From positions 1 to 64,000 of the forward strand of contig VFZX01000002.1 in NCBI GenBank assembly GCA_016871015.1: a stretch of DNA of 64,000 nt, written 5' to 3'. This stretch comes from Acidobacteriota bacterium. Its GTDB lineage: Bacteria; Acidobacteriota; Terriglobia; Bryobacterales; Bryobacteraceae. Positions 24,306 to 55,935 of this stretch are shown here, piece by piece. Below the pieces are notes generated by a model that was given only the letters and a program-made list of their open reading frames with translations, did not search any database and was not told where the DNA came from. The translations under genes were made by a program, and so were the position numbers. Position 1 is the stretch's first letter. The number at the start of each line of letters is the position of its first letter.

Positions 24306-25505
24306 ATGGAGCGAATGCGCCTGCTTGGGCTTGGGGCGCTGATCACGGCCGAGCTCGCGCTGGTGACACTCAGCGCTGATGGGGCCAACCTGCCACAGGG
24401 CGCTGGCGGGCTGATCGGGCTGCTCGACGACTGGGGCGCCTGGATCGCGCGGTGGATTGTGGCGTCCGGAGCGCTGTTCGGCGCGATCGCCTATTTCCGG
24501 CCGGGAACGATCGCCGTGACTGGTGACTGGACTCCGCCCAGCGGCCCATGGCTTGCGATCCATGTGGCCTGCGCGACGGCGTTCTGGCTGTTGTCACGCA
24601 GCCTGTACAGCCAGGCCGCGAGTACAGGACTGCTGATGGCCTGGATCTCAACAGGAGCAGGCACGGTGGCAACAGCAGCCGCGGCACTGATCCCACGCAC
24701 CGCCATCGGACCTTTGCTTCGCGGGGCGGCGCCGGCGATGCTGGCGAGCGCCCTGGCGGGGGCCGCGGCTTGCTGGCTCGGCGCGTTCTCACAGCGGCTG
24801 TGGCGGCCCGCGGCGGGAGCGACGTTCGTGATCGTGAAGGGACTCCTCGGAGTCCTTGTGGGTGACGTCGTTGTCGAGCCTTGGCGGAACCGTGTAGGTA
24901 CGCAGCGGTTTGGCGTCCTGATCGCGGAGGAATGTTCGGGGCTTGAAGGCATCGCGCTGTTCCTCGCTTTTGCCGTTTGCTGGCTGGTGCTGTTCCGGGA
25001 TGAGCTGCGGATCGGGCGGGCGCTGGCGGTACTTCCGCTCGGGGTGGTGGCGGTTTATCTGGCGAACTCAGTGCGAATCACGCTTCTTGTCCTGATCGGC
25101 CACGCCGGCTACAGGCAAGTTGCGGTGCAGGGATTCCATTCGCAAGCAGGCTGGATCGGATTCAGCCTCATCGCATTCGGTGTGCTCGCAGCAGCCCGGC
25201 GGTGGAGTTGGCTCTCGAAGCTCCCGCCAGCCAGCGCCAGCCAGCGCCGCCGAGTATCACAATCCAGCGGCGCCTTACCTGGTTCCGTTCCTCGCGGTCA
25301 TTGCGGCCGGAATGATTTCCGGAGCGCTGTCCGGCGGGTTCGAGTGGTTCTACGGCCTTCGTGTCGTTGCGGGCGGCGTGGCGCTTTGGATGTTCCGGTA
25401 CCAGTACAAGAACATCGATTGGTCCTGGAGCTGGCTAGCGCCAGCCGCCGGAGCCGCGGTATACGCCATCTGGGTCGCGCCGGACTGGCTGGCTGGGCGT
25501 GGTGA
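24306..25505 (+). CDS. Exosortase E half of a frameshifted exosortase E/CAAX-protease gene
   Basis: An integral membrane transpeptidase-like enzyme that should recognise and cleave C-terminal sorting signals. Multiple hydrophobic helices span the reading frame. The exosortase catalytic triad is intact: Cys210 in AEECSGLEGIALF, Arg257 in LANSVRITLL and His278 in QGFHSQAGWIGF. Homologous sequence continues to about nucleotide 25225; beyond that the frame runs through a 10-bp duplication and becomes unrelated sequence, ending at 25505. Known exosortase E proteins are fused to a C-terminal CAAX-type protease, and exactly that domain follows in another frame. The VPEID-CTERM substrate gene lies just downstream. 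As sequenced, this half could still fold as an exosortase without its protease partner. Confidence 0.8.
   Translation: MERMRLLGLGALITAELALVTLSADGANLPQGAGGLIGLLDDWGAWIARWIVASGALFGAIAYFRPGTIAVTGDWTPPSGPWLAIHVACATAFWLLSRSLYSQAASTGLLMAWISTGAGTVATAAAALIPRTAIGPLLRGAAPAMLASALAGAAACWLGAFSQRLWRPAAGATFVIVKGLLGVLVGDVVVEPWRNRVGTQRFGVLIAEECSGLEGIALFLAFAVCWLVLFRDELRIGRALAVLPLGVVAVYLANSVRITLLVLIGHAGYRQVAVQGFHSQAGWIGFSLIAFGVLAAARRWSWLSKLPPASASQRRRVSQSSGALPGSVPRGHCGRNDFRSAVRRVRVVLRPSCRCGRRGALDVPVPVQEHRLVLELASASRRSRGIRHLGRAGLAGWAW
25226..25248 (+). repeat. 10-bp tandem duplication that breaks the exosortase E/protease reading frame
   Basis: GCCAGCCAGC occurs twice in direct succession (25226-25235 and 25236-25245), followed by a partial third copy GCC. 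Deleting one unit joins the upstream frame to the downstream frame: the product would read SKLPPASAAEYHNPAAPYL straight into the protease domain. The duplication is therefore the likely cause of the frameshift. Confidence 0.85.
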
Positions 25506-27988: not shown

Positions 27989-29443
27989 GTGCAGATCGCT
28001 GAACTTCTCAAAAACCGGGGCGTGTTGGCTGGAATCGGTGTGCTCGCCTTTGCGGCGGGAGTGTTCTGGGTTGATGAACGGCCGCTGGCAGCGAGGAAGA
28101 AGACCCGGCCGCTGATTCCGGTCTCCAGTGGGGAAAAGGCGGGCGAACGGCCCGTGTACCCCTATTCCGTGGTCCCTGGAGGCGTTTACAGCGGCAAGGA
28201 GGCCAAGGAGGCGGCCAAGAAGGACCCGGTAGTCAAGAAGCACTACACAGAGCAAGGCGTGGATGTCGACAGTCTCGAGGCGACCAAGCTCAAGTCGGCC
28301 AAGAAGGGATATGTGTCATACCGGGTCGGTGACCGCATCTATTGGACCAAGAAGAAGGTCGATCTTGCGCCAGGCGAGCTGGTGCTGACCGATGGGAACG
28401 AAAAGATCCGCGGCCGCTGCGGCAACATGATTTCGGATAAGCCGAAATCGCCGGTGTCCCCGATCGAGCCGCCGGAAAAGGACATGAACACGCCAGCCGA
28501 GAAATTCACGCCTCCGGCGGGGGCAGCGTCGATCTTCCCCCTGCAGGGGGAAATGCCGGTGCTCGCTGAGGTCAAGGAAGCGCCGGCCAACTGGTGGCAG
28601 GAGGGATCCTCGAACGGCGGGAACAACAACCATGCGGGGGGATCCGGATCGGGCTTCAACGGCGGCGGGTCCGCAGTCGGCGGGTTCGGCGGCGGCGGTG
28701 GTGTTGGTGGTGGAGGTGGAGGCGGAGGCGGAGGCGCCGGGAGTGGAGGCGCCGGAAGTGGAGGCGGCGGTGCCGGTGCCGGTTTCCTCGCTGATTCGTC
28801 TTCAGCGGGTGCAGGCGCGGGAGAACAGCAAGGCGCGGGCGCCGGCGGCGGTGGCACCGGAACGCTGCCCGCATCCATGGCGGGGATCACCAATGTCGGC
28901 ATCAATGGTACCGGGTACAACCAAGTACTGCCGGGCGGTTCAGGCAGCTCCGTGGTGCCCATCGGCAACGGCCGGATCGGACAAGATAGCGTTCAGGTCC
29001 GCAGTGCAAGCCTGGTCTCGTGGGGAAATGACAGTGGGGTCTCGTTTTCCAACGGAGGAGCGGGCTCGGGCGGGGGCGGAACCCTCAAGCCGGATGGACT
29101 TGTGACGAATCTTGCGGACGGAGGCGGGAGCAACCTTCCGTCGCACCCGTTCAGCAAGGACAAGAATCCCACGGCACAGGGGACTCCCGCCACCCTCATT
29201 TCCACGGTCGCGCACAACCGGTCCGGAACGGATGGCACGGGCTCAAGCACTCGCGGGCAAGGCACCGCTACTCCTCCCGCCGAAGTGAAGATCACGCAGC
29301 GGCGGGATAATCCCCGGCCCGAGGCGCTGATGGACGGCGATGGAGCCGTGAACCGGGTGGCGCAGACGCCGGAGCCGGCCACGTTTGCCTTGGTCGGAGT
29401 GGCTTTACTTGCCCTAGGACTGCGAAAACGCGGATTCCGCTAA
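27989..29443 (+). CDS. PEP-CTERM protein with YSV-PGG domain and glycine-rich linker (paralogue 1)
   Basis: 484 residues, GTG start. N-terminal membrane anchor/signal (GVLAGIGVLAFAAGVFWV); a conserved domain from about residue 50 to 150 with VYPYSVVPGGVYSG, DPVVKKHY, YVSYRVGDRIYWTKKKV and NEKIRGRCGN; then a low-complexity Gly/Ser/Ala-rich region of roughly 250 residues. It ends in a textbook PEP-CTERM signal: TPEPATFALVG, a hydrophobic helix and the basic tail RKRGFR. PEP-CTERM signals are processed by exosortases in the envelope. The N-terminal domain is shared with the next gene, so the two are tandem paralogues 47 bases apart. Function unknown; an exported, Gly-rich surface or matrix protein is a fair guess. 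Confidence 0.8.
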   Translation: MQIAELLKNRGVLAGIGVLAFAAGVFWVDERPLAARKKTRPLIPVSSGEKAGERPVYPYSVVPGGVYSGKEAKEAAKKDPVVKKHYTEQGVDVDSLEATKLKSAKKGYVSYRVGDRIYWTKKKVDLAPGELVLTDGNEKIRGRCGNMISDKPKSPVSPIEPPEKDMNTPAEKFTPPAGAASIFPLQGEMPVLAEVKEAPANWWQEGSSNGGNNNHAGGSGSGFNGGGSAVGGFGGGGGVGGGGGGGGGGAGSGGAGSGGGGAGAGFLADSSSAGAGAGEQQGAGAGGGGTGTLPASMAGITNVGINGTGYNQVLPGGSGSSVVPIGNGRIGQDSVQVRSASLVSWGNDSGVSFSNGGAGSGGGGTLKPDGLVTNLADGGGSNLPSHPFSKDKNPTAQGTPATLISTVAHNRSGTDGTGSSTRGQGTATPPAEVKITQRRDNPRPEALMDGDGAVNRVAQTPEPATFALVGVALLALGLRKRGFR

Positions 29444-29490
29444 CGGGCTCCCACGCGAGGCCGATGAGTCCGGCAGGAGCCGGATTGAAA

Positions 29491-30732
29491 ATGAATCGGC
29501 GGATCGTGATTGGAGCGGCGCTGATAGCGGCGCTCGGAATCCTGGTGCTCAGAAAGGCAGGCCGCGAGGCCGGGCACAATGAGAGCGCCATGAGGGTAAG
29601 GGCAGAGAAGGTGCGGAACGTTGCACCGCGGCGCCCGGTGTATCCCTACTCGGTGATCCCCGGCGGTTCCTTCAGCAGTGCCGAGACGCAGGACTGGGTG
29701 GACTCCGATCCTGTTGTCCGGGATCACTACAGCGGGATCCGCACCAAGGATCTGCGCACGGCGGTTGTTCCCGCCAGCCGGCCGGTCTACGTCTCCTACC
29801 GAAAGGGCGAGCGTGTGTTCTGGACGGCGAAGAAGGTAACACTGGCAGCCGGGGAAACGGTCTTGAGCGATGGCAACGAACAGATCCGGGCCCGGTGCGG
29901 GAACCGGATCTCGGCGCGTCCCATGTCGCCGGTCGCCTTTGACGAGCCCGGGGAGCAGGTTCTGAATGAGCCGCTGCCCACGCTCGCCGTGAACCTCGAC
30001 TGGGGACGCAGCGGCGGATTTGGATGGACAGGTCCTGTGCCCGAGCCACTGGACCGCGGCGGGCCGGGGTCTGGAACCGGATTCATTGGATCCGGTGGCG
30101 GCGGCCCGGCCGGTTCCGGCGGCGGCGGTGGGCTCGTGGTGATGGGAGGAGTTCCCGGCATCCCATTGGGGAGTGCCGGGGGCGGGGGCGCTACAGGCGG
30201 AGGAGCTGGCGGCGCCCCCATCAGTCCTGGCGGCGGCAGCCAGACAGGAGGCCAGGGGCAGGGTCCAGGCGGAGGCAGTGGAACGAACCCAGGATCCGGT
30301 GGCGGTGGCGCAACAGGCGGTGGCGGAACGGATCCGGGAGGAGGCGGAAGCAGTCCCGGCGGGGGTGGCGGGCAGGGACAGGGGGGACAAGGCGGTCAGG
30401 GCGGTCAGGGCGGTCAGGGCGGACAGGGTGGTGGCTCCACCGGAAGCTCCGGCGGCGGCGGAACAGGTACCGGCAACGGAGGTGGCAGCAGTACAACGGC
30501 GACAGTCACCATTCCGGGCACTTCACGTCCAGCGCTGCTCCCAGAGGGACCAGAGACGTTGACTGGCGCGGGAGGAACCGGCAACGGCGGCGGCGGCGGC
30601 ACTCAGATGTCGACGATTCCCTACACTGGCTCGAACGACAACCGCCCGCCTCAACCCACTCCGGAACCGGGCACACTCTTGCTGGTGGGTGCGGGACTCG
30701 CCGCGCTCGGCTGGTTCAAACGGAAACGGTGA
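29491..30732 (+). CDS. PEP-CTERM protein with YSV-PGG domain and glycine-rich linker (paralogue 2)
   Basis: 413 residues from the ATG at 29491, which has AGGAG upstream and places the hydrophobic leader (IVIGAALIAALGILVL) at the N-terminus; an in-frame ATG at 29464 is an alternative. The conserved domain repeats that of the neighbour: VYPYSVIPGGSFSS, DPVVRDHYSG, YVSYRKGERVFWTAKKV and NEQIRARCGN. The linker is Gly/Ser/Gln-rich with short tandem repeats (GGQ triplets). The C-terminus is a PEP-CTERM signal, TPEPGTLLLVG, then AGLAALGWFKRKR. It sits two bases from the convergent FAH-family gene. Confidence 0.8.
   Translation: MNRRIVIGAALIAALGILVLRKAGREAGHNESAMRVRAEKVRNVAPRRPVYPYSVIPGGSFSSAETQDWVDSDPVVRDHYSGIRTKDLRTAVVPASRPVYVSYRKGERVFWTAKKVTLAAGETVLSDGNEQIRARCGNRISARPMSPVAFDEPGEQVLNEPLPTLAVNLDWGRSGGFGWTGPVPEPLDRGGPGSGTGFIGSGGGGPAGSGGGGGLVVMGGVPGIPLGSAGGGGATGGGAGGAPISPGGGSQTGGQGQGPGGGSGTNPGSGGGGATGGGGTDPGGGGSSPGGGGGQGQGGQGGQGGQGGQGGQGGGSTGSSGGGGTGTGNGGGSSTTATVTIPGTSRPALLPEGPETLTGAGGTGNGGGGGTQMSTIPYTGSNDNRPPQPTPEPGTLLLVGAGLAALGWFKRKR
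30391..30426 (+). repeat. 9-bp minisatellite in the glycine-rich linker
   Basis: GGCGGTCAG is repeated three times exactly (30391-30417), with a fourth copy GGCGGACAG, encoding GGQ units of the linker. Being a multiple of three, copy changes would alter linker length without breaking the frame. Confidence 0.7.
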
Positions 30733-31838: not shown

Positions 31839-32393
31839 GTGGGGGTGGACGCTCCGACTTCTGGCCGGCCGGTACGCGAATCGGCCTCCATCTACACGCA
31901 ACTGACGCAGCCCAACGACGCCAACCCGCTGGGGACACTGTTCGGCGGAATCCTGATGCAATGGGTGGACCTGGCCGCCTCACTCGCCGCTGCGCGCCAC
32001 GCGCGCTGCTATGTGGTCACCGCGTCGATTGACTCGATGACATTCTTGCTCCCCATCCGGATCGGACAGGTGGTGGTGCTGCGCTCGGCGGTGAACCGGG
32101 TGTTCCGGACATCAATGGAGGTTGGCGTCAAAGTCTTCGTCGAGGATTTGGCCACTAGCGCCAACAAGCATGTCTCCTCGGCCTATTTGACGTTCGTTGC
32201 GCTGGACAATGATCGCAAAAGGGTCGAGATTCCACCCGTGGTTCCGGAAACGGAAGACGAGAAGCGGCGCTACCAGCAAGCTGGCGAGCGGCGGCAATAC
32301 CGGCTGGACATGCGCGAGCGGGTGCTGGCGCGCGACCGCGCCGAAGGTGCGGGCCAGGCGCGGCTCAGCTCTCGGACTTGTACATGTACTTGA
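31839..32393 (+). CDS. Acyl-CoA thioesterase, hotdog fold (YciA/BFIT type)
   Basis: 184 residues; GTG start at 31839 or 31845 (no good ribosome binding site distinguishes them). The single hotdog domain contains [20 protein letters not shown], the conserved loop and active-site Asp of the acyl-CoA thioesterase family, and [10 protein letters not shown] in the last strand. It likely hydrolyses medium or long acyl-CoAs. A basic C-terminal extension ([19 protein letters not shown]) is typical of YciA/cytosolic thioesterases. The last 29 bases overlap the 3' end of hfq. Confidence 0.9.
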
Positions 32394-32685
32394 TGGCCGG
32401 CTTGTAAAGCATCATGGGTGTTCCCCCATCCGCCACAACCTTCAAGCACGCCTTGTCGTACCACTCGATCACGCCACTGACCTGCTCGCCGTCCCGGAGA
32501 ACGATCACCATTGGTGTCTTGAACTGGATCTGCTTGGCGTAATAGAAATTCTCAGCGTTGGTGCTCTCGGGCGGTGAACTTTTCTTTGCCATCGGCGGGC
32601 CCTGTGGCGCCGAGTGCTTCCGGGGATCGGGTCTCTCCTTGGACCCGTAGATGGGTCGAATCAACTTCCTGTTGGCTGCCTCCAC
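32365..32685 (-). CDS. hfq: RNA chaperone Hfq, divergent acidobacterial type
   Basis: 106 residues from a GTG at 32685 with AAGGAGAG six bases upstream; an internal ATG at 32592 would lose the Arg/Pro-rich N-terminal 31 residues. The Sm fold is visible as NFYYAKQIQFKTPMVIVLRD, GEQVSGVIEWYDKACLKVV and [11 protein letters not shown], the last in place of the canonical YKHAI. The His of YKHA is Pro here. The N-terminal extension with ANRKLIRP is characteristic of acidobacterial homologues in my recollection. It binds small RNAs and mRNAs. Convergent with the thioesterase gene; 70 bases after the biosynthetic operon. Confidence 0.8.
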   Translation of the reverse strand: MEAANRKLIRPIYGSKERPDPRKHSAPQGPPMAKKSSPPESTNAENFYYAKQIQFKTPMVIVLRDGEQVSGVIEWYDKACLKVVADGGTPMMLYKPAIKYMYKSES

Positions 32686-32755: not shown

Positions 32756-33532
32756 TCAAGCAAGCCTGTAGAGACGTTCCGGGGCGCGCCGGTAGAGTTG
32801 TGTGGCGTGGTCAAGCCCGTCGAACAGAGCGGGTGTCTGGCTTCGGTACTCGCCGATCGCCGCGATCGCACGGCGGGTTTCGGCTTCCGTTGGCAACAAT
32901 TCCGACTCGAGCGCCGGCGGACCCGGGGGAGGAAACGGCAAGACACCCAACCATCGCCGCATCACGGATTCGCGGTCCGCGGAGCCGAGCCAGGTGCGGA
33001 CGTAGGCGGCGTCGAAGTAGCGGTTCCAAAAACCTGGCGGCAGCGGATTGGGCGGGTTTCCGAGCACCTGAGCCACTTGCTCGGGAATGAACGAATAGGG
33101 CCGGTCTTCGTACCACCACAGCAGATCCGGCGGGACCGACGCCAACGCCGCATCGCGCACCAGCCGGTGATCCACGTGATTTCCTACGGCCAGAGGAGCG
33201 AGCACTCGCGCCGGACCCAACGCGCCCACAGTGTCCGCAAGCTCTGCCGCCACCGCGGCCTTCGCCGTGGTGTACTCGCACCCCGTCGAAAACAGGATTC
33301 CCTCAAAGCTTCGATACTCCTCCGACCGGAATGGAGCGTCCGTAAATCCAAGATGGAGCACCCTGGCTCCGAGAGTGTCCGCGGCACGGTGGTCCTCTTC
33401 GCGCCGCAGCTGGTGGACGGGGCCCTCGCTGAACACTGTCGCGATGACCGCGCGTGAGCGCTGGATTGACACCGGACACGACAGCACCGCGTCATCCAGA
33501 TGCGGCGACAGGAACAGCGTCAGGTCTCCCAC
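32756..33532 (-). CDS. PIG-L/LmbE-family deacetylase
   Basis: 258 residues, starting at a GTG (33532) that precedes the ROK-like gene's stop by 10 bases, so the genes overlap by 13. Zinc-binding motifs of N-acetylglucosaminyl deacetylases are clear: SPHLDDAVLSC at residues 9-19 (PHxDD) and GNHVDHRLVRDA (HxDH). Related enzymes deacetylate GlcNAc-inositol, GlcNAc-malate or aminoglycoside intermediates. As the last gene of a glycosyltransferase-rich operon, it probably removes an acetyl group from an N-acetyl-sugar added by one of the two glycosyltransferases. Confidence 0.85.
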   Translation of the reverse strand: MGDLTLFLSPHLDDAVLSCPVSIQRSRAVIATVFSEGPVHQLRREEDHRAADTLGARVLHLGFTDAPFRSEEYRSFEGILFSTGCEYTTAKAAVAAELADTVGALGPARVLAPLAVGNHVDHRLVRDAALASVPPDLLWWYEDRPYSFIPEQVAQVLGNPPNPLPPGFWNRYFDAAYVRTWLGSADRESVMRRWLGVLPFPPPGPPALESELLPTEAETRRAIAAIGEYRSQTPALFDGLDHATQLYRRAPERLYRLA

Positions 33533-34293
33533 AACGCCCCTCCCACGCCGAATCCGAGAGTCAGCACCAGCGTCTTGCGCTTTGCCGCCGGACAAAGGCC
33601 TCGCGCCGTCAACACGGCATCGTTGACAACGGCCCAGGGCACATCGAACAGGCCTCGGAACACGTGCTCCACGGGTCCCCACAGGCCCGGATAGGTCGAG
33701 GATCGCGCGCCGCCTTCATGGTCGAGAGCCACGGGGAGTCCCAGAACGATTCCGTCCGCGCCACCGGTCTCCGCCAGGCCGCGGCGCAATAGATCCCGCA
33801 GCCGTTCGCGGCCCAGTTCCGCGGTGAGAGCATGCGGACCGTAAGGCAACAAGGCTTCGTCGCGGGGAATCCGGACCCTTGCGCTCCCGGCGATCACTTT
33901 CAATCCGGTCTGCCCCAAGTCCAGCGCGGCCCCGCGGTGCCATCCAAGTTCGCTCAAGATCTCGCGCGCTCCGGCGGCCGCGGCGAACGGATCCGGAGTC
34001 CCGGTGTCTACGGTGAACGGCAGTCCGGCGCGGTTCATCGCTTCCACCAGATGCGGATGTCCCGCATCGCCGCCTGCAAAGCAGACCCGGTCGAATCCCG
34101 CGGCGCGATGAAGCTGCGCATTGTCCGCCGGATCGGGTGCCCGCGCGTGGCCTGAATGGAGCTGGACCAGAAACTCGCGCATGGCGGTGAAGTACTCGCG
34201 TTTCGAATGGCGCAGGCTGAACAGCGTAGCCGGTCCACGGAGCCCATGCCACAACTCGATTCCGCGGAGTCCTGGCCGCTGATACACGATCAA
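33520..34293 (-). CDS. Actin-fold/ROK-like protein (putative sugar kinase or pantothenate-kinase-like)
   Basis: 257 residues from a TTG at 34293 whose last bases overlap the glycosyltransferase TGA. The C-terminal 150 residues have the ASKHA phosphate-binding pattern: LDLGQTGLKVI (DxGxTxxK), IVLGLPVALDHEGG, AVVNDAVLTARG and LVLTLGFGVGGALW. This matches ROK and related sugar kinases. The first 100 residues (HGLRGPATLFSLRHSKREYF and so on) do not look like a normal ROK HTH or kinase lobe, so the family membership is approximate. In this operon it could phosphorylate a hexosamine. Confidence 0.55.
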   Translation of the reverse strand: MIVYQRPGLRGIELWHGLRGPATLFSLRHSKREYFTAMREFLVQLHSGHARAPDPADNAQLHRAAGFDRVCFAGGDAGHPHLVEAMNRAGLPFTVDTGTPDPFAAAAGAREILSELGWHRGAALDLGQTGLKVIAGSARVRIPRDEALLPYGPHALTAELGRERLRDLLRRGLAETGGADGIVLGLPVALDHEGGARSSTYPGLWGPVEHVFRGLFDVPWAVVNDAVLTARGLCPAAKRKTLVLTLGFGVGGALWET

Positions 34294-35243
34294 CGGACTG
34301 GCTCCTTGGTCTCGGCGACCGGCCGCCAGGTTGGGCACGGCGCCGATGAGAAGCGGCTGTAATAGATCCTTTGCGCGGCGTACGCCGCTTTGCACAGCAG
34401 CAATCCGGCCTGGAACACCGCATAGTAGAACTTCTCGCGCAACGGCGCCGCGGCGAGCAGGCTCCGGTCGAGCCGCCGCCGACCCCATTGCTCGTGAGCT
34501 GGCCGGGTTTCGGGAAAGTAGCAGTGGAGCCTCTCGATTTCGAGCACCATCCGCTGGTATTTGCGGAACATTCCGGTTAACGTTTCCGGAGGCCGGTACC
34601 GGATTCCTTCCGGCACACAGAGGATCGACTCTGGGCCGCTCCGCGCCAGCGCCACGCGCGACAGGTAGATGTCGTCGCAGCGGATGCCAGCCTTGAGGTT
34701 GAGGAATCCGTTATCGAGAGCTGGATCCCAATTGAGATCTTCGACCTTCGGAATGTTCCAGTGGCGGATGGCGAAGAACTGTCCGTTCAGGTAGTGCCGC
34801 CGGGTCTGATACCCCTCGCGGAGGTTGTACAGGTACAACGCCCGGGCCAGCAATCCGCGCCGCAGCGGCTCAACCGGATACTTCTCCGCGTAAGCGATGA
34901 CGAGCCGCGAATCGCCAAGCATCGCACGCGTCACAGCGGCAACGGTCCCGGAGCCGGCGAGGATGTCGGCATCGGAGAAGATCACAAACGGCGCGCGTCC
35001 GGCGAAGGCTTCCGCGAAGGCGCGCTGGGCTTCGACCAGTCCGCCGGTGGTGTGCCACACCGTGAGTCCCGGGATGCTGGCGGCGAGCTGTGGCGTCTCG
35101 TCCGTGTTGTCGTTCAGCAGCAAGTGAAGCTGATAGCGGCATCCGGTTTCCGATTCGGCCCGCGCGATTGATGCCTTCAGTGACTCGATCAGCGCCAGGA
35201 TATTGCGCGCCTCGTTGCGGGCAGTGATTCCGATCGGGATCAT
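34290..35243 (-). CDS. Family 2 glycosyltransferase
   Basis: 317 residues. The GT-A fold is recognised from PIGITARNEARNILALIESL at the N-terminus, LLLNDNTDETP and the metal-binding DxD-type FVIFSDADILAG; a second acidic motif is GIRCDDIYLSRVAL. The C-terminal 70 residues are basic and aromatic and may contact the membrane or acceptor. The ATG overlaps the upstream stop by four bases (ATGA) and the downstream gene starts within this gene's stop, so it is translationally coupled to both. Donor and acceptor are unknown. Confidence 0.85.
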   Translation of the reverse strand: MIPIGITARNEARNILALIESLKASIARAESETGCRYQLHLLLNDNTDETPQLAASIPGLTVWHTTGGLVEAQRAFAEAFAGRAPFVIFSDADILAGSGTVAAVTRAMLGDSRLVIAYAEKYPVEPLRRGLLARALYLYNLREGYQTRRHYLNGQFFAIRHWNIPKVEDLNWDPALDNGFLNLKAGIRCDDIYLSRVALARSGPESILCVPEGIRYRPPETLTGMFRKYQRMVLEIERLHCYFPETRPAHEQWGRRRLDRSLLAAAPLREKFYYAVFQAGLLLCKAAYAAQRIYYSRFSSAPCPTWRPVAETKEPVR

Positions 35244-36394
35244 CGCATCTCCGTGATCAGCCGCGCCGCCTCGCGCGCACCGTCCCGCTGATAGGACTTG
35301 GTGATGGGGGCGAGCCGCTGCTGAAGTCCGGCGTCGGAAAGCAGGAAGCCGAGATGCTCCGCGATCCGGTCTGCAGAGGCGTGCCTCAGGTCGTCCACAC
35401 GTCCGATTCCGGCCCGTTCAACGAACCACGCCTGATGAAACTGGTCATTGCACATCGGCGACACGAGCATCGGCACTCCACAGGCGATCGCCTCCATGAC
35501 GGAGTTCGCGCCGCCGTGGGTGATGAAGGCGTGTGCATTGCGCAGAAGGCGCATCTGCGGAGCGTACCGGTAGACGTGGCAGTCTTCCCAATCCGCGCCG
35601 ATGCCGAGGCTGCCCGCCGAGATCGCAAGCCAAGCGCCCAAGCGCCGGCAAGCCTGGTGGATCCTGGCAAACAGCTCCGGCCAGTGGTAAATCTGGCTGC
35701 CAAACGAAGCGTACACGAGGTGGCGCGTGTGGACTGGCAGAATTTCCACTTCGTCACCGCGCGCGTCCCTTGGAATCGAAGGACCCACCAGGTTCACGTC
35801 CGCGGGTGCGGGTCCGGTGAACTCCTCCGTCGTAAAGGCGACGTTCAAGAACGGCGAGAGCACATCGCAGCCGGAGAAGCGCGGATCGAGCCCGTGGCTT
35901 TGGAACAACACACGCCGCGCAGGATCGAGCCGGCGGGTGGTGTGCAGAAGCGCGCTACCGGTCTCCGGCCGCAGCACCGGATTGAGCGAGTTCGACACCG
36001 AGGCCCAGGGCAGGCACGCCTGGTGCGCGGCGATCGCCGCCGCGTAGTAGAGCGGATCAATCACCACCGCATCCGCGCGTTCCTGTGCCAGCCAATTGCG
36101 GATCAGCGGGACATCCCCGTCAACTCCGCCAAGCAGCAGTTCCTCGATCCAGACGTCAAGGCGCGCCGGATCCTGGATCAGCTCGACCAGCTCGCGCCCG
36201 TGCGTGACGCGGCCGCCGCCGTGCTGGCGGATGAGCGCGGAGTGGAACGTGAGTCCTGCACGTGTGACCTGTTGGCTGATGTCTCCGGGCGCCGCGATCA
36301 CCACATCGTGGCCGCCATCACGCAGGTGCTGCGCGGGACCGATGTAGGGGTTCACATGGCCCTTTTCCGGAATCAGAACAAAGGCGATCTTCAC
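35240..36394 (-). CDS. UDP-glycosyltransferase/macrolide-glycosyltransferase-type GT1 enzyme
   Basis: 384 residues with a GT-B fold. The N-terminal motif IPEKGHVNPYIGPAQHL matches the acceptor-side loop of macrolide and UGT glycosyltransferases; the donor-binding motif is HGGANSVMEAIACGVPM followed by SPMCNDQFHQAWF near residue 285. Such enzymes add sugars to small hydrophobic molecules, not to polymers. That makes a glycosylated small product the likely output of the operon. Four-base overlaps couple it to its neighbours on both sides. Confidence 0.85.
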   Translation of the reverse strand: MKIAFVLIPEKGHVNPYIGPAQHLRDGGHDVVIAAPGDISQQVTRAGLTFHSALIRQHGGGRVTHGRELVELIQDPARLDVWIEELLLGGVDGDVPLIRNWLAQERADAVVIDPLYYAAAIAAHQACLPWASVSNSLNPVLRPETGSALLHTTRRLDPARRVLFQSHGLDPRFSGCDVLSPFLNVAFTTEEFTGPAPADVNLVGPSIPRDARGDEVEILPVHTRHLVYASFGSQIYHWPELFARIHQACRRLGAWLAISAGSLGIGADWEDCHVYRYAPQMRLLRNAHAFITHGGANSVMEAIACGVPMLVSPMCNDQFHQAWFVERAGIGRVDDLRHASADRIAEHLGFLLSDAGLQQRLAPITKSYQRDGAREAARLITEMR

Positions 36395-38100
36395 CGGCCG
36401 AACCTCTCAAACCAGGTGAGCAGGGCCAGGATGCGGAAGCGGAGTCCCGTGTCGCGGTCCGATGCCGGAGGCGTGGCCGCCATCGCGGCGGCCGCGTCAC
36501 AGTCGGCATAAGGTTGGATCCAGTCCGAGGACCGGTTCCATGCCGCCACGAACATCCCCTGGATCACCGCGCCCGCCGCCAGATTCTTCGTCAGCGCCGA
36601 TTTGGGGCGCCAGGCGAATTCGGAGCCGGTGAATCCTTCCGCCGCGGCACGGAGATGCGCTTTCTCGATTCCATTCCGGTAGGCAGCCGATGGAGGCGTC
36701 AACCGGGCGAGATCCAGCAGATCCGTGTCGCCGAATGGGACACGCCCTTCCACTCCATGTGCCATCAAGTGAATGTCTCCGTTGTGGAGGAGCCGCGGGA
36801 GCCAGAACCGCACTACGAGCGCTGACATCGCCAGGCGTTGGCATTCGAGTCCGCTCCAGGAATGGCCCATCGATTCCGCCAGGCGCTCATAGGATTCACC
36901 GAAGTCTGGCAGGCCAGGGCGTAGCTGGATGGCGCCGAAGTACTCGATCATCTTGCGCGGTGGACCGATCCGGGCCGGATCCAGCAGGAACGAGTATCCG
37001 AAGTGGGTCTCGTCAGCGGCGTCGCCCACCAGCACCGCCTTCGCCTCGCGTCCTGCCGCTTGGGCCAGCAGGTTCTGCGAGACTTCCTGCTCCCATGCGG
37101 AGATGAGGTCGTTGGTTTGGAGCGTCCGGGCCAGCGCTTCCCCGTAATCACCAGCCGCGCAGTGTACGATCCGGTGGTCGAGTCCAATTCGCGAGGCGGC
37201 GCGCTTGGCCCAAGGCACGTCGTCGCTCTTGACGATTAGGGATTGTGTGTACTCGGCGCGATCCTGGTTTTCGTACTCGATGGTCCAGGCGCGGACCGGC
37301 GCGGAGGAGTGGCGTTGTGCGGCTGCGGCTACGAGCGTCGAGTCCACGCCGCCACTGAGAAACACACCCGGCGGCTGGTCGGCCACGAGGGCGCGTTGAA
37401 CCGCGCAGTCGAGGGCATTGGCAAGCGGGGGAGCTTCGGCGGCTGGCGTGAACCGGAAACTGAAGTATTCATGTGGCGAGGAGCAAGCGCCATCAATTTC
37501 GAGGTAGTGTCCGGCGCGTAGCCGTTGCAGCCCGTCGAATGGAATCCGCTCAACGGAACTGAAGTAGGGCGCGGTGAGGTGTTCCGCGATCGCGTCCGCG
37601 TTGGGGCGGAAGCCGACGGCCCCGGACTCGACCAATGCCCCTGCTTCGGAGGCGAACCAGAAGCGCCTCCGGTCAAAGCTGTACAGGAACGGCTTGATGG
37701 CGAGCCGGTCACAGGCTGCGAGTCCGCGCTGTTCCTGGTTGTCCCAGAAGAACAGCGAGAACATCCCGTTGAACTGGCTCAGCGCCGCCGGTCCGCGCCC
37801 GATCAACGCGTGCAGCACGGCTTCGGTGTCGGTGATGGCGCTGTTGCGAAGATCCCGGAAATTGTAGACCGCGCCGTTGTAGACAAGGACGTAGCGCCCG
37901 CAGGGGGACGGCATCGGCAGCGGATGCGGGCGGGCGCCGATTACCGCGAGCCGCGTCTGGACCAGAGCGCATCGCGTGTCCGTGTACGTTCCCTCACCGT
38001 CGGGTCCGCGGTGGCGCAGCAGCGCGGGCAGGCGGGACACAGCGGCGTGATCCGCGCTGGTGAGTCCGCTGAACCGGACTACGCCCGCGATTCCGCACAC
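36391..38100 (-). CDS. Asparagine-synthetase-like amidotransferase with glutaminase domain
   Basis: 569 residues starting at a GTG at 38100, so that residue 2 is the catalytic Cys (CGIAGVVRF); a longer upstream reading would bury it. The N-terminal Ntn glutaminase has RHRGPDGEGTY and YNGAVYNFRDL. The synthetase domain has the PP-loop LSGGVDSTLV at about residue 250, WTIEYENQDR and KAVLVGDAADETHFGY (GDGADE-like). Such enzymes activate a carboxylate with ATP and transfer ammonia; related ones build lactams or isopeptides in natural products. It overlaps the 3' end of the glutaminase-less paralogue by 22 bases. Confidence 0.85.
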   Translation of the reverse strand: MCGIAGVVRFSGLTSADHAAVSRLPALLRHRGPDGEGTYTDTRCALVQTRLAVIGARPHPLPMPSPCGRYVLVYNGAVYNFRDLRNSAITDTEAVLHALIGRGPAALSQFNGMFSLFFWDNQEQRGLAACDRLAIKPFLYSFDRRRFWFASEAGALVESGAVGFRPNADAIAEHLTAPYFSSVERIPFDGLQRLRAGHYLEIDGACSSPHEYFSFRFTPAAEAPPLANALDCAVQRALVADQPPGVFLSGGVDSTLVAAAAQRHSSAPVRAWTIEYENQDRAEYTQSLIVKSDDVPWAKRAASRIGLDHRIVHCAAGDYGEALARTLQTNDLISAWEQEVSQNLLAQAAGREAKAVLVGDAADETHFGYSFLLDPARIGPPRKMIEYFGAIQLRPGLPDFGESYERLAESMGHSWSGLECQRLAMSALVVRFWLPRLLHNGDIHLMAHGVEGRVPFGDTDLLDLARLTPPSAAYRNGIEKAHLRAAAEGFTGSEFAWRPKSALTKNLAAGAVIQGMFVAAWNRSSDWIQPYADCDAAAAMAATPPASDRDTGLRFRILALLTWFERFGR

Positions 38101-38963
38101 AGCGTGCGCGCCTCCAGGTGGGCTTCGAGCAGGCGGAACGAGTGTTCGAGGCAGCCGGGGACGTCCGGGAACATCGTGGAGCGCTTGGGGACCGCGGGAA
38201 CGCCGAGCGCCAGCGCCAGTGCACGGACGCGCGACTTGTCCGGGTCCCGTGTGGGAAAGCAGGCTTGAACCGCGGGATCGAGGAAGGGCGCGTTCACACG
38301 GACTCCTTGGGAGCGGAACGCACTGAGAGTGAGCGGCAACAGGTCGCACTCCTGATCGTGGCGGGCCACTTGGTCGGCGCCGTCGCCTGTGATGACCTCC
38401 GTGATTCCCTGCTTGATGAAAGCCCGGGCGAGCAGGAGTTTCGAGACCGGGTGGAGGTTGTAAACCGGAAACTGAACCGCGGCGGTGAAGTCCGGCAGAG
38501 CGTCAGGAAAGTCCCTGTACGAGGCATCCGTGCATTCGACGGGGACGCCGAGCGCGCGGCCCATCCGCCGCGCCTGATCGTATTCGCAGTATCCGGCGAT
38601 TCCGGTGCGCAGCGTCCAGGCGTGTACCCGGACACCAGCGCGAAGCAGCATCGCGGCGAGCAGCCAGCAATCGATGCCTCCACTGACGGCCACATGGGCC
38701 TCGTGCGGCCGTCCCAGGGTGCGGAGCAAGCATTCCCCGATCCCGCCGTTGCCCGCTGCTGGCACGGGGCGCACGGGACCGGGACCGGACGCGATTCCCG
38801 CGAACGGCGTCAGGTCTCCAATGCCTTTGCCGCGGGGATACCGGGCGAAGAACCCGGAGCACTTCTCCCGCTCGGGGTCCGTGCACCAGGAGTACACCTC
38901 CGCAAGATCCTCACTCGCACGCCCGTCGCTTCTGCGTACGAAGGTGCACCCCCACTCGATCAT
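38079..38963 (-). CDS. Asparagine-synthase-like ATP-pyrophosphatase lacking the glutaminase domain
   Basis: 294 residues. A PP-loop AVSGGIDCWLLAAML at residues 92-106 has Cys-Trp in place of the usual Ser; TGDGADQVARHDQECDLLPL is the Asn-synthase GDGADE motif with Gln for Glu. The N-terminal 90 residues contain no nucleophilic Cys2 glutaminase signature. It therefore cannot use glutamine directly; it may act on free ammonia, on another amine, or as a partner or subunit of the complete enzyme next to it. The ATG overlaps the radical SAM stop by four bases. This pairing of complete and truncated Asn-synthetase genes is unusual. Confidence 0.7.
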   Translation of the reverse strand: MIEWGCTFVRRSDGRASEDLAEVYSWCTDPEREKCSGFFARYPRGKGIGDLTPFAGIASGPGPVRPVPAAGNGGIGECLLRTLGRPHEAHVAVSGGIDCWLLAAMLLRAGVRVHAWTLRTGIAGYCEYDQARRMGRALGVPVECTDASYRDFPDALPDFTAAVQFPVYNLHPVSKLLLARAFIKQGITEVITGDGADQVARHDQECDLLPLTLSAFRSQGVRVNAPFLDPAVQACFPTRDPDKSRVRALALALGVPAVPKRSTMFPDVPGCLEHSFRLLEAHLEARTLCAESRA

Positions 38964-39784
38964 TGCACCGCGGCCGCAAGCGTGACCAGGCGTTCGCGCT
39001 TGGCGGCCACCTCTCGCGGATGCAACTGGCGCTGCGTCTCAAGCGGCGCGTCCCCGCCCTGGCACAAGTAGCAGGAGCGAAGCGGCTCCGTGCCGCGGAG
39101 ATGAGCCTGGATACGGAGCGCGAGCGATCCGGTGTCCTCATCATGGACCTCGACGCCGTCTTCGCAAAACCACTCCGGCACGGGTGCGAACTTCTGGACA
39201 TACTGCGGACGCGTGCAGCAATAGAAGCGGCCGTCCTTGATACTGTTACAGCGGTGGCGGATCCAGCAGGAGTTGAACACGCCGCGCGCTTCCTCGTGGG
39301 TGGCGAGCCGGTCGCGGTCCAGGCAGGTGAACTTGTCCTGCACCTTCCAGCTCACCTGGATCCCGCGTCGGGCCGCTTCGCGCGACATGTAGCGGATCAG
39401 CGGCTTGGGCACCGCGGGCTCAGGGTAGAGCGATACGGCAAGCATTTGGATGGAGTCCCACGAGCGCGGCGTCATCCGCTCGATCAGCAGTCCGTTGGTG
39501 GTGAGTTAGATGCGGGGGGCTACATCGAGCGATTTCGCGATCACCAGGAGCCGCTCGAGCTCCGGGTGGAGCAGCGGCTCGCCTCCAACAATCTTGAGAA
39601 ATTCCGGTGCCACGACGCGGCGGACAGCGCGCAGGTCGCGCTCGAAGCCGGCGGGGTCCGCCAGCCACTTCTTCAAAACCGGGGAAAACGAACAGCAGTG
39701 ATCGCAGCGGAGGTTGCAGTGATCAGCGATGTGATACTCGAGCGCCCGGGTCCGGACCTTGCCATCGATGATCGGGTAGGTCAT
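38960..39784 (-). pseudogene. Radical SAM protein interrupted by an in-frame TAA
   Basis: Read through the stop, this is a 274-codon radical SAM enzyme starting at the ATG at 39784. Cys23, Cys27 and Cys30 in DHCNLRCDHC bind the 4Fe-4S cluster and SAM; IVGGEPLLHPELERLL follows. A TAA at 39506-39508 replaces the residue before LTTNGLLIER, the next conserved strand, with no frame change. The C-terminal part has more cysteines (FNSCWIRHRCN, FYCCTRPQ, RSCYLCQGG) that suggest an auxiliary cluster (SPASM/Twitch-like). It is truncated as sequenced, unless the stop is read through or is an error. Its stop overlaps the downstream start (ATGA). Confidence 0.8.
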
Positions 39785-40679
39785 CCACCCCCACGATAGC
39801 AGACCTCCGGCGGCACCACTCGGCGCGCGGATGTCCGGGCGATGTGTGACGCTCCCACTCTTGAGCCGCGCGGCGGAAGGCCTCGCGGGCGGCGGCCAAG
39901 TTGCCCAGCATCTGTTCGGCTTCGGCGAGCTTTTCCCAGTACGGCATTGGCTCCGGATCGATTTGCCGCCGCGATTGCTCTTCGAACACAATCTTGCCGC
40001 GGAATCCTTTCACGGCCTCCTCCGCGTCTCCTTGGTAGAGGAGCCACTCGTCGTTGCCCATGGCCTCCGGCACCTCGCCGTCAGGGATTGAGCCTTCCGG
40101 CTCACGCGCGATCGCCGCGCGCTGGATCGCGGTGGCACGCGCCATGGCCATCTGCGCGTCCGCACGGCCACCGTTGCGCCAGTGGGCCCGCGCAAGTTGC
40201 GTCACCGCCGGGACCAGGCCGATCTCGTCCGGTTCAGCCGCCTGTTCGAACGACTGAATGGCCCGTTGAAACAGCGCGATCGACTCCGGGTAGTTCTCCC
40301 GCGCCATCGCGACCCCGCCCAGCCGCTCGTAAAGCTCGCCCACGGCGAGCGGATCCGGCCCTCAAGGCGAGGCGTTGTGGCGTTGCAGCAGATCGAACAG
40401 GAGCGCGGCTGAACGGTCCAGATTTCCCATGCGGAACGCGACCGTAGCCATTGCATCGCGGGCCATCCGCTGCTGGGTATTGGCCACGGTTCCCCGGTGG
40501 CGGGAGGCGTCTTGGTCCGCCATTTCGAACAACCGCAAGGCTTCGGCAAGGTTGCCTTTGGCCGCCGCATCAGCCCCGGCCCCGAACATCCGTGCCCACT
40601 GGCGTACCCGGAGGATCTTCAGCACGATCCAGGCCCCCGCCACCGCGGCGCACCCAAGTAGTACGGAACCCCAGCTCAT
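39723..40679 (-). pseudogene. Membrane-anchored TPR protein interrupted by an in-frame TGA
   Basis: The ATG at 40679 overlaps the upstream gene's stop. The first 25 residues form a membrane anchor (VLLGCAAVAGAWIVLKIL); helical TPR-like repeats follow, such as GNLAEALRLFEMA, GNLDRSAALLFDLLQR and NYPESIALFQRAIQSFEQA, and LAAAREAFRRAAQEW. A TGA at 40362-40364 interrupts the product after LQRHNASP, but the frame resumes at once with GPDPLAVGELYERLG and a normal repeat. The complete version would be about 317 residues. The 3' end extends 62 bases into the radical SAM gene in a different frame. Confidence 0.7.
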
Positions 40680-41053
40680 CGCAGCGCCTCCCGGACCTCA
40701 GCGGCTCTCTGCCGCCCATCATCGTCGAGCACGGCGCCCAGGTTGCTCAACGTCAGGGCAAGTTCCCCGGTATCCTCGCCATCCAACTCGCGGCGAAGGT
40801 CCACGGCGCGGAGTGCCCGTCGGTAGTGGATCTCGCCGAGCGTGTACTTGGACACCGCGGTGTCCAGGTGATTCTCACCCTTTTTCTTGCGGAGGCGGCG
40901 GAGCACGCGCTCGAGGAGGGGAAGGGCCTTGTTGCGGCGTGACAACGCCATGTACCACTGGATCCTGCCAGTGAGGTAGCGGTCGTAGTAGCGTGCCCGC
41001 AGAAGGAGGAAGACGAGGCATGCTCCGGCAACGAGTGCACCGAGGATTGGCAC
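40676..41053 (-). CDS. Small membrane-anchored TPR-like protein, first gene of the operon
   Basis: 125 residues. N-terminal membrane helix (ILGALVAGACLVFLLL), then helical TPR-like units: RIQWYMALSRRNKALPLLER, SKYTLGEIHYRRALRAVDL and ELALTLSNLGAVLDDDG. It overlaps the next gene by four bases (ATGA) and its ATG at 41053 is separated by only 42 bases from the divergent Uma2 gene. Probably a scaffold or interaction partner of the second TPR protein. Function unknown. Confidence 0.6.
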   Translation of the reverse strand: MPILGALVAGACLVFLLLRARYYDRYLTGRIQWYMALSRRNKALPLLERVLRRLRKKKGENHLDTAVSKYTLGEIHYRRALRAVDLRRELDGEDTGELALTLSNLGAVLDDDGRQRAAEVREALR

Positions 41054-53800: not shown

Positions 53801-54244
53801 GGGTCTGTGACGCACAACTTCAATTCCGATCAGCGCCACATTGAGCTGGTGTTCAAGCATGACGGCGGCGAGATTCTGATGGCCACGGTGCCCTCGAATC
53901 CCGCGGTGGCGATTCCCGGCTACTACCTGGTGTTCGTGATCGACGGCACGGGACGGCCGAGCGAGGGCAAGTTCATCCAGGTCCGGCGGGCGCGCCGCAG
54001 GTTCTTCGCGGACTTCCACGCCGGCTTCGTCAACACGGTGCTGCAGCGCATGGCCGGGGGATCATCGCCGACCGAAGATGAGGTGCGCACGCTCCGTTCG
54101 ATCTTCGAGAAACCAGCGCCAGGGAGGCGCAGGCTTCCGCCCACCGATACACCGACGCACGGCGAGCATGTCGACCCCAGCGATCCGGCGCATGGACCTG
54201 GTGGTCATGGAGGCGGAGGGCACGGAGGCGGCCACGATCACTGA
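50885..54244 (+). CDS. Copper-radical oxidase (galactose/glyoxal-oxidase-like) with six N-terminal repeats and a His-rich tail
   Basis: 1119 residues with a GGGAGG ribosome binding site and no signal peptide. Residues 8-510 are six repeats of about 80 residues, each opening PLxEC and carrying VxVxxLxPGAxVxV (for example NLMPGTRVYVY, DVTPGARVDVY). From residue 519 a kelch-type galactose-oxidase domain begins. Active-site candidates are in the right order and spacing: Cys593 (FCAGHA), Tyr668 (KWYPT), Tyr894-His895 (ARQYHSTA) and His977 (VTHNF). Enzymes of this type oxidise alcohols or aldehydes to give hydrogen peroxide. The last 30 residues are Gly/His-rich (GHGGGGHGGGHDH), possibly copper-binding. 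The lack of a signal is odd for a usually exported enzyme. Confidence 0.85.
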   Translation: MPLLPPRVVGPLSECSGRVRVQGQLTGSTVKVFAGANVVAQGVASWSDQTFALTTPLAPGDMVTATQTVGVETSINSPEAVEVQAKPPAVGPVAFVSNLNECGECVYLEGLVPGAKVEVRNGAGPVLGSGESYDGVARVGLSPQLTGGMNVRAQQNACGMAGVDTAGPPVEGTRERKLNAPTVQSPLRECQRTVTVSDVVHGATVTLMRSGGPNLQACFDLGSLYFTVNPPLALGETVTAQQAFPKCGPKSPDATPVVVQDNTPVPPANVKPPLCKGSTTVTVTGLIQGARVRIRENGVDIGEAESPVDGEYGFLVPPLGAGSVISAIQELCGEWSGPGTAVTVDPAPVSLPKPKVADPLFECSAVVRVLNLMPGTRVYVYSAMLNGPIGEKQVFAAEEDVSVAPLLIKGDKIHAIQKGCGLVSSKSASVEVKAAEELRPPTVASPLYSCDTVVRVVDVTPGARVDVYVNGVFRGTEKTGTTTALVPISGSLQVGDQVTARQRLCDFISKPSKPVRVEEFCGRWRRVGGDNAAEILAVHAALLRTGKIVYFGGDQHTSSLNVSGDVDHTRVYDCKTGAITTVTGLPGNADLFCAGHALLEDGRLLAAGGTRNWGGGGIHPPGHFIGLRDAYIFDPATETWSATGKLVTQRPEEVAEGTNIERTGGKWYPTLVVLPDGRVLALSGHPEVEDSRHNNNSLELYSPATGVWTIVPPSDYDNIDSDPARRYEYPRLHVLPDRSVISTSVMADGTLEKWHPYDDATNWEFVANPAPSAMYQNAFAQDTTSVLLPLKPTDKYRARVLVAGDSMPFVLDTTNPAAGWTAVPRNMVDYPAVGDVNPRRENLDAVILPTGEVFIEGGVKNFNDDNTAVKRGEMFNPETNTWKVLPEAERARQYHSTALLMPDGAVWVAGSNFNSGTGLANRELRIEVFEPWYFCGRRPVLTDASKQVSVGQSFDIRTPDAASIRRVVIVRCGSVTHNFNSDQRHIELVFKHDGGEILMATVPSNPAVAIPGYYLVFVIDGTGRPSEGKFIQVRRARRRFFADFHAGFVNTVLQRMAGGSSPTEDEVRTLRSIFEKPAPGRRRLPPTDTPTHGEHVDPSDPAHGPGGHGGGGHGGGHDH

Positions 54245-55935
54245 GGAGGCACTTGCCACTCAATGAGAATCGCAGAAACCGGCCGGTCGCCGCTCCGCAA
54301 CTGAATCCGCTGCGGGGCGTCTCCGGCCGGCTGGGCGGCCACCTGGACTTCGCGGGCCCGCGCAGCGTCCTGCACAAACGTGGCGTCCATCCATCCGGTC
54401 TGCGCACTGCGGGCCTCGGCGCCACGGCCGGGGCTGGCGGTGTAGATGGATAATCCGCCGCTGGTGATCTCGGCGGGGTAGGCGGCTACGCGCGCGGCGA
54501 CTGACGGCAACACGGCGTTAACGGTGCCGATTGAGGCCCGCCGTCCGTCGATCGAAAGCACGGTGTTTGGCGGCAGGTATCCGGTCCAGATCATGCGGCC
54601 CGAGCGCGGACCGCTGTACCGCGGCGGTTCCGGTTTGGGAGGCGGAGGCAAGGTCACGGGTTCTGGTGGCGGCTCAGGCTTCACCGCGGCCACAGCGGCA
54701 GGCTTCGGGGGCTCCGGGGCCGCAGGAGCGGGTGGCTCCGGCTTCGGCTCCGCCTTAGCGGCAGGCGTGTTCCTCAGGTTGATGATCCTTTGCAGCTCCT
54801 CCAGACGGGTCCGGCGTGTTTCGTTTGCCGTTGTGACCCGGCGCAGTGCTTCCTGCAACTTGAGGAGTTCGGCTTGGGGTTGCGCCGCGCTTGGAGTCCG
54901 CGCGAGGGTGGCGGGGAGGGCCGCATCCGGCTTTTCCCTGGGGGCGATAAAGCGCATGGACTCGCGCGCGGCACCGCGGCCTTCGTCGCCGGTGCGCAGG
55001 ATGATCCGGACCTCGTCAGTGGTGCGAATAACGGTCCAGCTTCCCGCTGCGCGCACTGCTGGTGTGAGCGGGAGCACGGACCTCCGTTCGCCGTCCAGAA
55101 TATCGAGGCGCGCCGGGCCGGACTGAAACACTGGCGAAGCGGGGTTCCAACTGACGTTGAGAAACCCGTCCTTTTCGGTGGCGCGCAGTCCGGCGCTGAC
55201 ATGGCGCGATTGCGGCTCCTCGACGACGGGCTTGCGTCCCCAATACCATCCGGCCCAACCGGCGCCGAACGCCGTCAGCACAACCGGGACCGACCAAAGC
55301 CAGATCGCCCGGCTGCGGCCGCGAGCCGGCGGAAAACTGAATAATTCGGCGGGCGGCGGAGGGGGCGGGTCCTCCAGGAGATCATCCTCCACTCGAGCGG
55401 CGAGAGGCACCAGCTCAAACTCCCGCATGCTGTGGTCAGTCTGCGGGTTGCCCTTGGCGGGGCGGAAGAAGAATCCAGCCCGTGTAGGACCTTCCGCCTG
55501 CGGCTTCAAGACGAGAGCGACTTGCCAGCGGAACGGAAATTGGCGGTTCCACAGGTCCACCGCTCCCGGACTCATGGCGATGTCGCCGGCGGTGCGCGAA
55601 TGGTACCAGCCCACCGGGACTAGCTTCCTGAGTTCGGTGTCGGAGTTGGAAGTTTGCAGCATGTGCTGCAGGATGGTCTCGTCCTCCTCGGTGAGAGTGA
55701 AGTCTTCCGAGCGCGCCCTCTTGGGCACGGGACGGTAGGCGGTGATCCGTACTTCTTCGTCGTCGGCGCTGCCAAACAGGATTCCCCCGACGGAATCCGC
55801 GCCACGGCCGCGGGTGAAGGCGAGATTGGCGTCCTCCACGATGCGATCCATCAACAGGCGGGCGTAAGCAACCAAGGGTGTGCGGCCCGGCACATGCCAG
55901 GTGTCAAACTCAAGCTGCCGTTCCGGTTGCGCCAT
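54238..55935 (-). CDS. Membrane protein with degenerate JAMM/Mov34 domain and proline-rich region
   Basis: 565 residues. Residues about 20-170 resemble the JAMM fold: VGGILFGS, ITAYRPVPK, and VGWYHSRTAGDIAMS where active JAMM proteases have HSHP, so the second zinc His is Arg and the zinc site is probably lost. A proline-rich segment (PPPPPPAELFSFPP), one membrane helix (VPVVLTAFGAGWAGWYWG at about 210), a beta-sandwich, a coiled stretch and a Pro/Ala-rich linker (PPAPAAPEPPKP) follow, ending in a PEGA-like domain (YLPPNTVLSIDGRR) and C-terminal beta-rich part. Domain order places JAMM in the cytoplasm and the rest outside. Function unknown; a pseudoenzyme sensor is a possibility. Confidence 0.55.
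   Translation of the reverse strand: MAQPERQLEFDTWHVPGRTPLVAYARLLMDRIVEDANLAFTRGRGADSVGGILFGSADDEEVRITAYRPVPKRARSEDFTLTEEDETILQHMLQTSNSDTELRKLVPVGWYHSRTAGDIAMSPGAVDLWNRQFPFRWQVALVLKPQAEGPTRAGFFFRPAKGNPQTDHSMREFELVPLAARVEDDLLEDPPPPPPAELFSFPPARGRSRAIWLWSVPVVLTAFGAGWAGWYWGRKPVVEEPQSRHVSAGLRATEKDGFLNVSWNPASPVFQSGPARLDILDGERRSVLPLTPAVRAAGSWTVIRTTDEVRIILRTGDEGRGAARESMRFIAPREKPDAALPATLARTPSAAQPQAELLKLQEALRRVTTANETRRTRLEELQRIINLRNTPAAKAEPKPEPPAPAAPEPPKPAAVAAVKPEPPPEPVTLPPPPKPEPPRYSGPRSGRMIWTGYLPPNTVLSIDGRRASIGTVNAVLPSVAARVAAYPAEITSGGLSIYTASPGRGAEARSAQTGWMDATFVQDAARAREVQVAAQPAGDAPQRIQLRSGDRPVSAILIEWQVPPQ

Follow-up and report, generated by a model that had tools for sequence, protein, structure and literature searches.

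We analysed a window of 64,000 nucleotides from an acidobacterial genome (assembly GCA_016871015.1, contig VFZX01000002.1, positions 1 to 64,000), in which a first-pass annotation had proposed a translationally coupled biosynthetic operon of nine minus-strand genes. The region from 32756 to 41053 does hold nine minus-strand frames in the order that it gave, and most overlaps are of four bases, as it had stated: the overlap is 4 nt at five of the eight junctions and longer at the other three, namely TPR2 with the radical S-adenosylmethionine (rSAM) gene (62 nt), AsnS with AsnB (22 nt) and the ROK-like gene with PIG-L (13 nt). Within the longest open reading frames (ORFs), the true starts lie at 38100 for AsnB, 34293 for the ROK-like gene and 33532 for PIG-L. 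Pfam and NCBIfam agree with the families that had been assigned (TPR, Radical_SAM, Asn_synthase twice, UDPGT/MGT, GT2 and PIG-L). The real unit is seven genes, spanning 32756-39784, which are listed first below in the direction of transcription and are followed by the two TPR genes.

38960..39784, minus strand: twitch rSAM enzyme (SpeY/HygY-like); ATG start, TAA at codon 93
38079..38963, minus strand: AsnS, a stand-alone Asn-synthetase-type ATP-pyrophosphatase ligase without glutaminase; Pfam Asn_synthase
36391..38100, minus strand: AsnB-like glutamine-dependent amidotransferase; GTG start, which places Cys at position 2; GATase_6/7 and Asn_synthase
35240..36394, minus strand: GT1 glycosyltransferase (GT) of the UGT/MGT type; GTG start; UDPGT and MGT profiles
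34290..35243, minus strand: GT2 glycosyltransferase with a DAD motif; Pfam Glycos_transf_2
33520..34293, minus strand: ROK-like protein, its fold probably that of a ROK sugar kinase in circularly permuted form; TTG start; AlphaFold, Foldseek and hhalign
32756..33532, minus strand: PIG-L family de-N-acetylase; GTG start; Pfam PIG-L
39723..40679, minus strand: TPR2, outside the conserved cassette; TGA at codon 106
40676..41053, minus strand: TPR1, outside the conserved cassette; shorter than its relative in genome G015

Relatives of the cassette were gathered by an rSAM search plus whole-genome searches. The same gene order, with similar overlaps, recurs in ten other loci, nine in acidobacterial metagenome-assembled genomes (MAGs) and one in a Bdellovibrionales MAG, and protein identity across these loci reaches down to about 30-46%. 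The seven-gene order is far beyond chance. The first-pass annotation had staked its operon on conservation of gene order in relatives, and the order and overlaps kept in these ten loci uphold a translationally coupled biosynthetic unit. Its inclusion of the TPR genes is not supported: no TPR genes were detected at the related cassette loci, and a homologous pair, its second gene likewise in pieces, sits away from any cassette in G015 (contig 62, L081). The hosts are acidobacteria of the Bryobacterales/Solibacteraceae type, one MAG labelled Granulicella, and the Bdellovibrionales MAG. Six core genes are complete in nine loci (L017, L018, L019, L020, L021, L023, L024, L025 and L027); in L016, AsnS and AsnB extend into assembly gaps, with a repeat insert in AsnS as well, and L022 stops within GT1. 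Large rSAM/AsnS overlaps for L019, L020, L021 and L024 are artefacts of misplaced AsnS starts. Repeat-like inserts (ACAGGCGAATCGCCTGTC type) were also seen within AsnS of L014 (genome G068), where extra in-frame stretches resembling related inserts lie within the GT1 and ROK-like genes.

The gene trees broadly agree. All six single-gene trees contain the groups L018/L020/L021/L023 and L019/L024/L027 and place L016 with L017, and this recurrence of the acidobacterial groupings indicates that the set is inherited together. Strong ROK-like matches occurred in 10 of 400 genomes searched, from three genera and counting both the window's own genome and one remnant; the same search found no such match in two congeneric genomes. 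No second member on the Bdellovibrionales side was found among 141 genomes of that MAG's order, and a first contig scan with AsnS as the query returned no match. Two loci, L072 and L073, which belong to two genera in a different acidobacterial family, carry a shorter variant that consists of rSAM, an Asn_synthase protein without an intact glutaminase and GT1, with PIG-L in L072, and that adjoins a class III aminotransferase gene (L-lysine 6-transaminase in L072). Literature searches, outside which most subscription papers lay, returned no description of this gene combination.

The first enzyme of the cassette is a twitch rSAM protein of the SpeY/HygY type, with a CX3CX2C motif and auxiliary CX9-15GX4C and CX2C motifs, which in intact members are CNLRCDHC at residues 23-30, CX11GX4C at 173-190 and CX2C at 238-241. 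It matched PDB 7wzv over its full length by hmmsearch (E=6.8e-41, profile positions 2-258), and Foldseek, queried with a low-confidence model, names that entry 'Twitch Radical SAM Dehydrogenase SpeY'. When plasmids were searched by tblastn with the rSAM protein, one match was returned, a Streptomyces radical SAM protein (29% over 92%) whose neighbours encode APH(7'')-Ia, DegT aminotransferases and epimerases; the region reads like a hygromycin-B-type cluster. Residue C179 is invariant in the cassette members checked and in L072/L073, and it supplies the Cys expected of a HygY-type epimerase: it aligns with Cys183 of the Streptomyces HygY-like protein, 183 being the number of the corresponding cysteine in HygY, whereas SpeY has Ser at this position. 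In NeoN, the hydrogen atom is donated by Cys249 (PMC10991966), and a title in the reference list of that paper tells of dehydrogenase activity arising from mutation of a single Cys in HygY. Because C179 is conserved like the Cys of the HygY-like protein, and given the role of that Cys in NeoN and HygY, the alignment favours an epimerase over a dehydrogenase, and a sugar or cyclitol epimerase is the most likely assignment. The cassette enzyme shares full-length homology and the three cysteine motifs with SpeY and HygY-type enzymes but is only about 25-29% identical to them and lies outside any aminoglycoside cluster. Two other assignments were rejected, viperin at 44.9 bits against a cut-off of 180 (NCBIfam NF038283) and anti-phage defence, for which the only sign was that the rSAM core matched pVip locally. 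Further rSAM relatives, at about 22-37% identity, occur on contigs that IMG/VR lists as viral (L085-L094).

The two Asn-synthetase-type proteins differ as the first-pass annotation had described, with a GATase domain only in the longer one. AsnS matches Pfam Asn_synthase (E=3.3e-10) and has the SGGxD and GDxAD motifs; its P-loop reads SGGIDC in the window, SGGxDS in most relatives and SGGLDA in L024. AsnB scores 273.2 bits against a cut-off of 267.1 for TIGR01536, a broad model of glutamine-hydrolysing asparagine synthase (333.7 for L017), and its best PDB match is the hydroxyamidotransferase 7ylz (E=1.6e-31). MoeH5 of the moenomycin pathway is kin to Asn-synthetases. It is an amidotransferase that acts on a sugar-antibiotic core (PMC8778134), and it sets a precedent for amidating such a core. 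The moenomycin set resembles ours, by analogy only, in that the gene for an amidation enzyme overlaps one for a GT, and differs in its prenyl and phosphoglycerate genes, which have no counterpart here.

Radical SAM enzymes and Asn-synthetase-like cyclases are both known from clusters for ribosomally synthesised and post-translationally modified peptides (RiPPs), which raises the alternative that a precursor peptide is modified by rSAM, closed into a macrolactam by an Asn-synthetase-like enzyme and glycosylated by the GTs. We consider this very improbable. The overlapping genes contain no precursor ORF, the flanks have no short ORF in common across lineages, no RiPP recognition element (RRE) or protease belongs to the conserved set, and rSAM is closer to the sugar-acting SpeY/HygY-type enzymes than to sactipeptide maturases. 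AsnB also falls far below the lasso-cyclase model (91.6 versus 525 bits, NF033535), which agrees with the earlier view that a lasso peptide is unlikely.

GT1, with the motif HGGANSVMEA...DQ, has as PDB relatives kcn28, the oleandomycin GTs, YjiC, GtfA/B and the CalG enzymes, and is nearest to macrolide-type GTs. GT2 carries an FSDADI motif, is 59-63% identical among the acidobacterial cassettes and gave no PDB match. PIG-L belongs to the PIG-L/LmbE family (44.3 bits against a Pfam cut-off of 28.2, E=3e-11) and has the metal motifs SPHLDD and GNHVDH; its best PDB match is the pseudoaglycone deacetylase Dbv21, and teicoplanin Orf2 is also near. The glycopeptide systems of Dbv21 and Orf2 likewise combine a PIG-L deacetylase and GT1s in one gene set, but the similarity is remote and their nonribosomal peptide synthetase genes for the aglycone are not in the conserved set here.

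The ROK-like protein had been described as an actin-fold, kinase-like protein. Its AlphaFold model (predicted local distance difference test, pLDDT, 90.4; predicted template modelling score, pTM, 0.88) found ROK kinases as its best Foldseek matches, which favours that description, but Pfam ROK gave no match for either the native or the domain-swapped sequence, so that canonical-order membership is not supported. Comparison with 240-aa ROK proteins by hhalign was significant over residues 120-256 only, the C-terminal half (E 3.4e-11); the profile comparison of the N-terminal half (domain II) was not significant, and the swapped profile matched PDB kinases weakly (E 0.3). By eye, GLEIWHG resembles NLELGHH of the 240-aa proteins. 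The protein shares the DLGQTxLK, NDA and GFGxG motifs and the fold of the C-terminal half with ROK N-acetylmannosamine kinases and glucokinases (3lm2, 6jdb, 2aa4). It differs in that the chain stops just past the phosphate-2 hairpin and the remaining domain comes first; the order of elements is the remainder of domain II, domain I, and finally strands one and two of domain II. Because the swapped-sequence and domain-II comparisons were not significant, it is the AlphaFold topology by which the protein appears circularly permuted.

Based on these assignments, we give about even chances to the reading that the locus is an orphan biosynthetic cassette of seven genes that produces a small, amide-bonded amino-sugar glycoside; the enzyme families make an epimerised, de-N-acetylated amino-sugar glycoside amide the most likely product. 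What we observe is which genes make up the set, how they are conserved, and their motifs and interruptions; the chemistry of the pathway we infer as follows, with steps in no set order. GT1 and GT2, judged by family, would transfer sugars from nucleotide sugars to give a small glycoside. PIG-L, judged by its relatives and metal motifs, would remove the acetyl group of N-acetylglucosamine (GlcNAc) to expose a free amine, the reaction that enzymes of the Dbv21/Orf2 type carry out on glycopeptides. The rSAM enzyme, by its alignment with the HygY-like protein and SpeY, would invert one sugar or cyclitol carbon: a 5'-deoxyadenosyl radical would take the hydrogen, Cys179 would give one back on the other face, and the auxiliary cluster (Cys173, 190, 238, 241) would handle the electron. 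AsnB may activate a carboxylate with ATP and amidate it with glutamine-derived ammonia, AsnS, without a glutaminase, may activate a carboxylate and join it to an amine, and the ROK-like protein might phosphorylate or bind a sugar.

Conserved order with overlapping translation in three acidobacterial groups and the Bdellovibrionales MAG favours the glycoside cassette. So does L028, in a proteobacterial MAG, where the first four cassette genes are present and are flanked by APH-type kinases and by FkbM and CmcI-type methyltransferases. Several points weigh against it. PIG-L is missing in L017, L019, L024 and L027, the HygY-type function of rSAM is based on alignment, and the AlphaFold model of rSAM has low confidence (pLDDT 63.7). 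Furthermore, the set differs from typical antibiotic clusters in that no gene for transport, regulation or self-resistance is conserved alongside it. The set also contains no enzyme that makes a sugar acid or an aglycone. Of the earlier proposal of an amide or lactam core with an amino sugar, the amide-forming and amino-sugar enzymes stand, and a lactam core is possible, though we saw no specific sign of one. It is possible, though doubtful, that the cassette represents a new compact pathway class, in which an epimerised amino-sugar amide would be made by paired Asn-synthetase-type ligases and a permuted ROK kinase without an aglycone line or an exporter. Acidobacteria are abundant in soil and their small molecules are poorly known. 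The seven-gene block, conserved between genera and also in a single distant phylum, is compact enough for the whole of it to be expressed, and intact versions are public. The cassette leads to specific predictions, namely that Cys179 serves a HygY-type epimerisation, that GlcNAc is deacetylated and that amidation takes place in two distinct steps. The circular permutation of a ROK kinase, if confirmed, would be of structural interest.

The absence of exporter and resistance genes from the set also fits an alternative in which the cassette makes no free small molecule but modifies a glycan or glycolipid of the cell envelope: the GTs would add sugars to a surface or lipid-linked glycan, PIG-L would deacetylate, AsnB would amidate a uronic acid and rSAM would epimerise a residue. 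AsnB and GT2 types are found in surface-glycan loci also, and an exosortase (EpsH) gene (24306-25505) and two glycine-rich PEP-CTERM proteins (27989-30732) lie a few kb from the cassette in the window. However, AsnB falls far short of the model of the XrtA/PEP-CTERM amidotransferase (179.3 versus 816.9 bits, TIGR03108), the set lacks a polymerase and a flippase, and no exosortase was seen by eye among the ORFs that flank L014 and L015. We regard envelope decoration as unlikely, although less so than a RiPP.

Two of the nine frames are interrupted, which the first-pass annotation had not noted: rSAM by a TAA at codon 93 (39506-39508) and TPR2 by a TGA at codon 106 (40362-40364). Apart from these stops, both frames are open and coding-biased. 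When codon usage was scanned along the whole window, both stops ranked among the few that have strongly coding same-frame sequence on either side; some other high-ranking stops look like ordinary gene-to-gene junctions. Given the nonsense codon in rSAM, an intact pathway in this genome is not supported; if the codon is real, the pathway would stop here at the rSAM step. We are evenly divided on whether this copy is a recently inactivated relic that yields no product here, a reading compatible with other explanations. The TAA stands where intact relatives have Gln (another residue in the two most distant members, and never a stop), and catalytic motifs show changes specific to the window, SGGIDC in AsnS and NGA where NGE is expected in AsnB. 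Moreover, both congeneric genomes are without the cassette, and another genome holds a decayed remnant of it behind a dnaE-like gene (L026). On the other side, six of the seven genes are open, a single base-call error could account for the TAA, and the P-loop Ser is replaced in L024 too. In a concatenated tree, the branch of the window measures 0.42 and is no longer than the paths that lead to the two sisters (0.40 and 0.415), which indicates that protein change has not accelerated. The TAA at codon 93 reflects either recent inactivation or an assembly error.

Elsewhere in the window, a gene for an Hfq-related small protein (32365-32592) lies downstream of PIG-L on the same strand, and a large protein with a JAB/MPN domain is encoded at 54238-55935.

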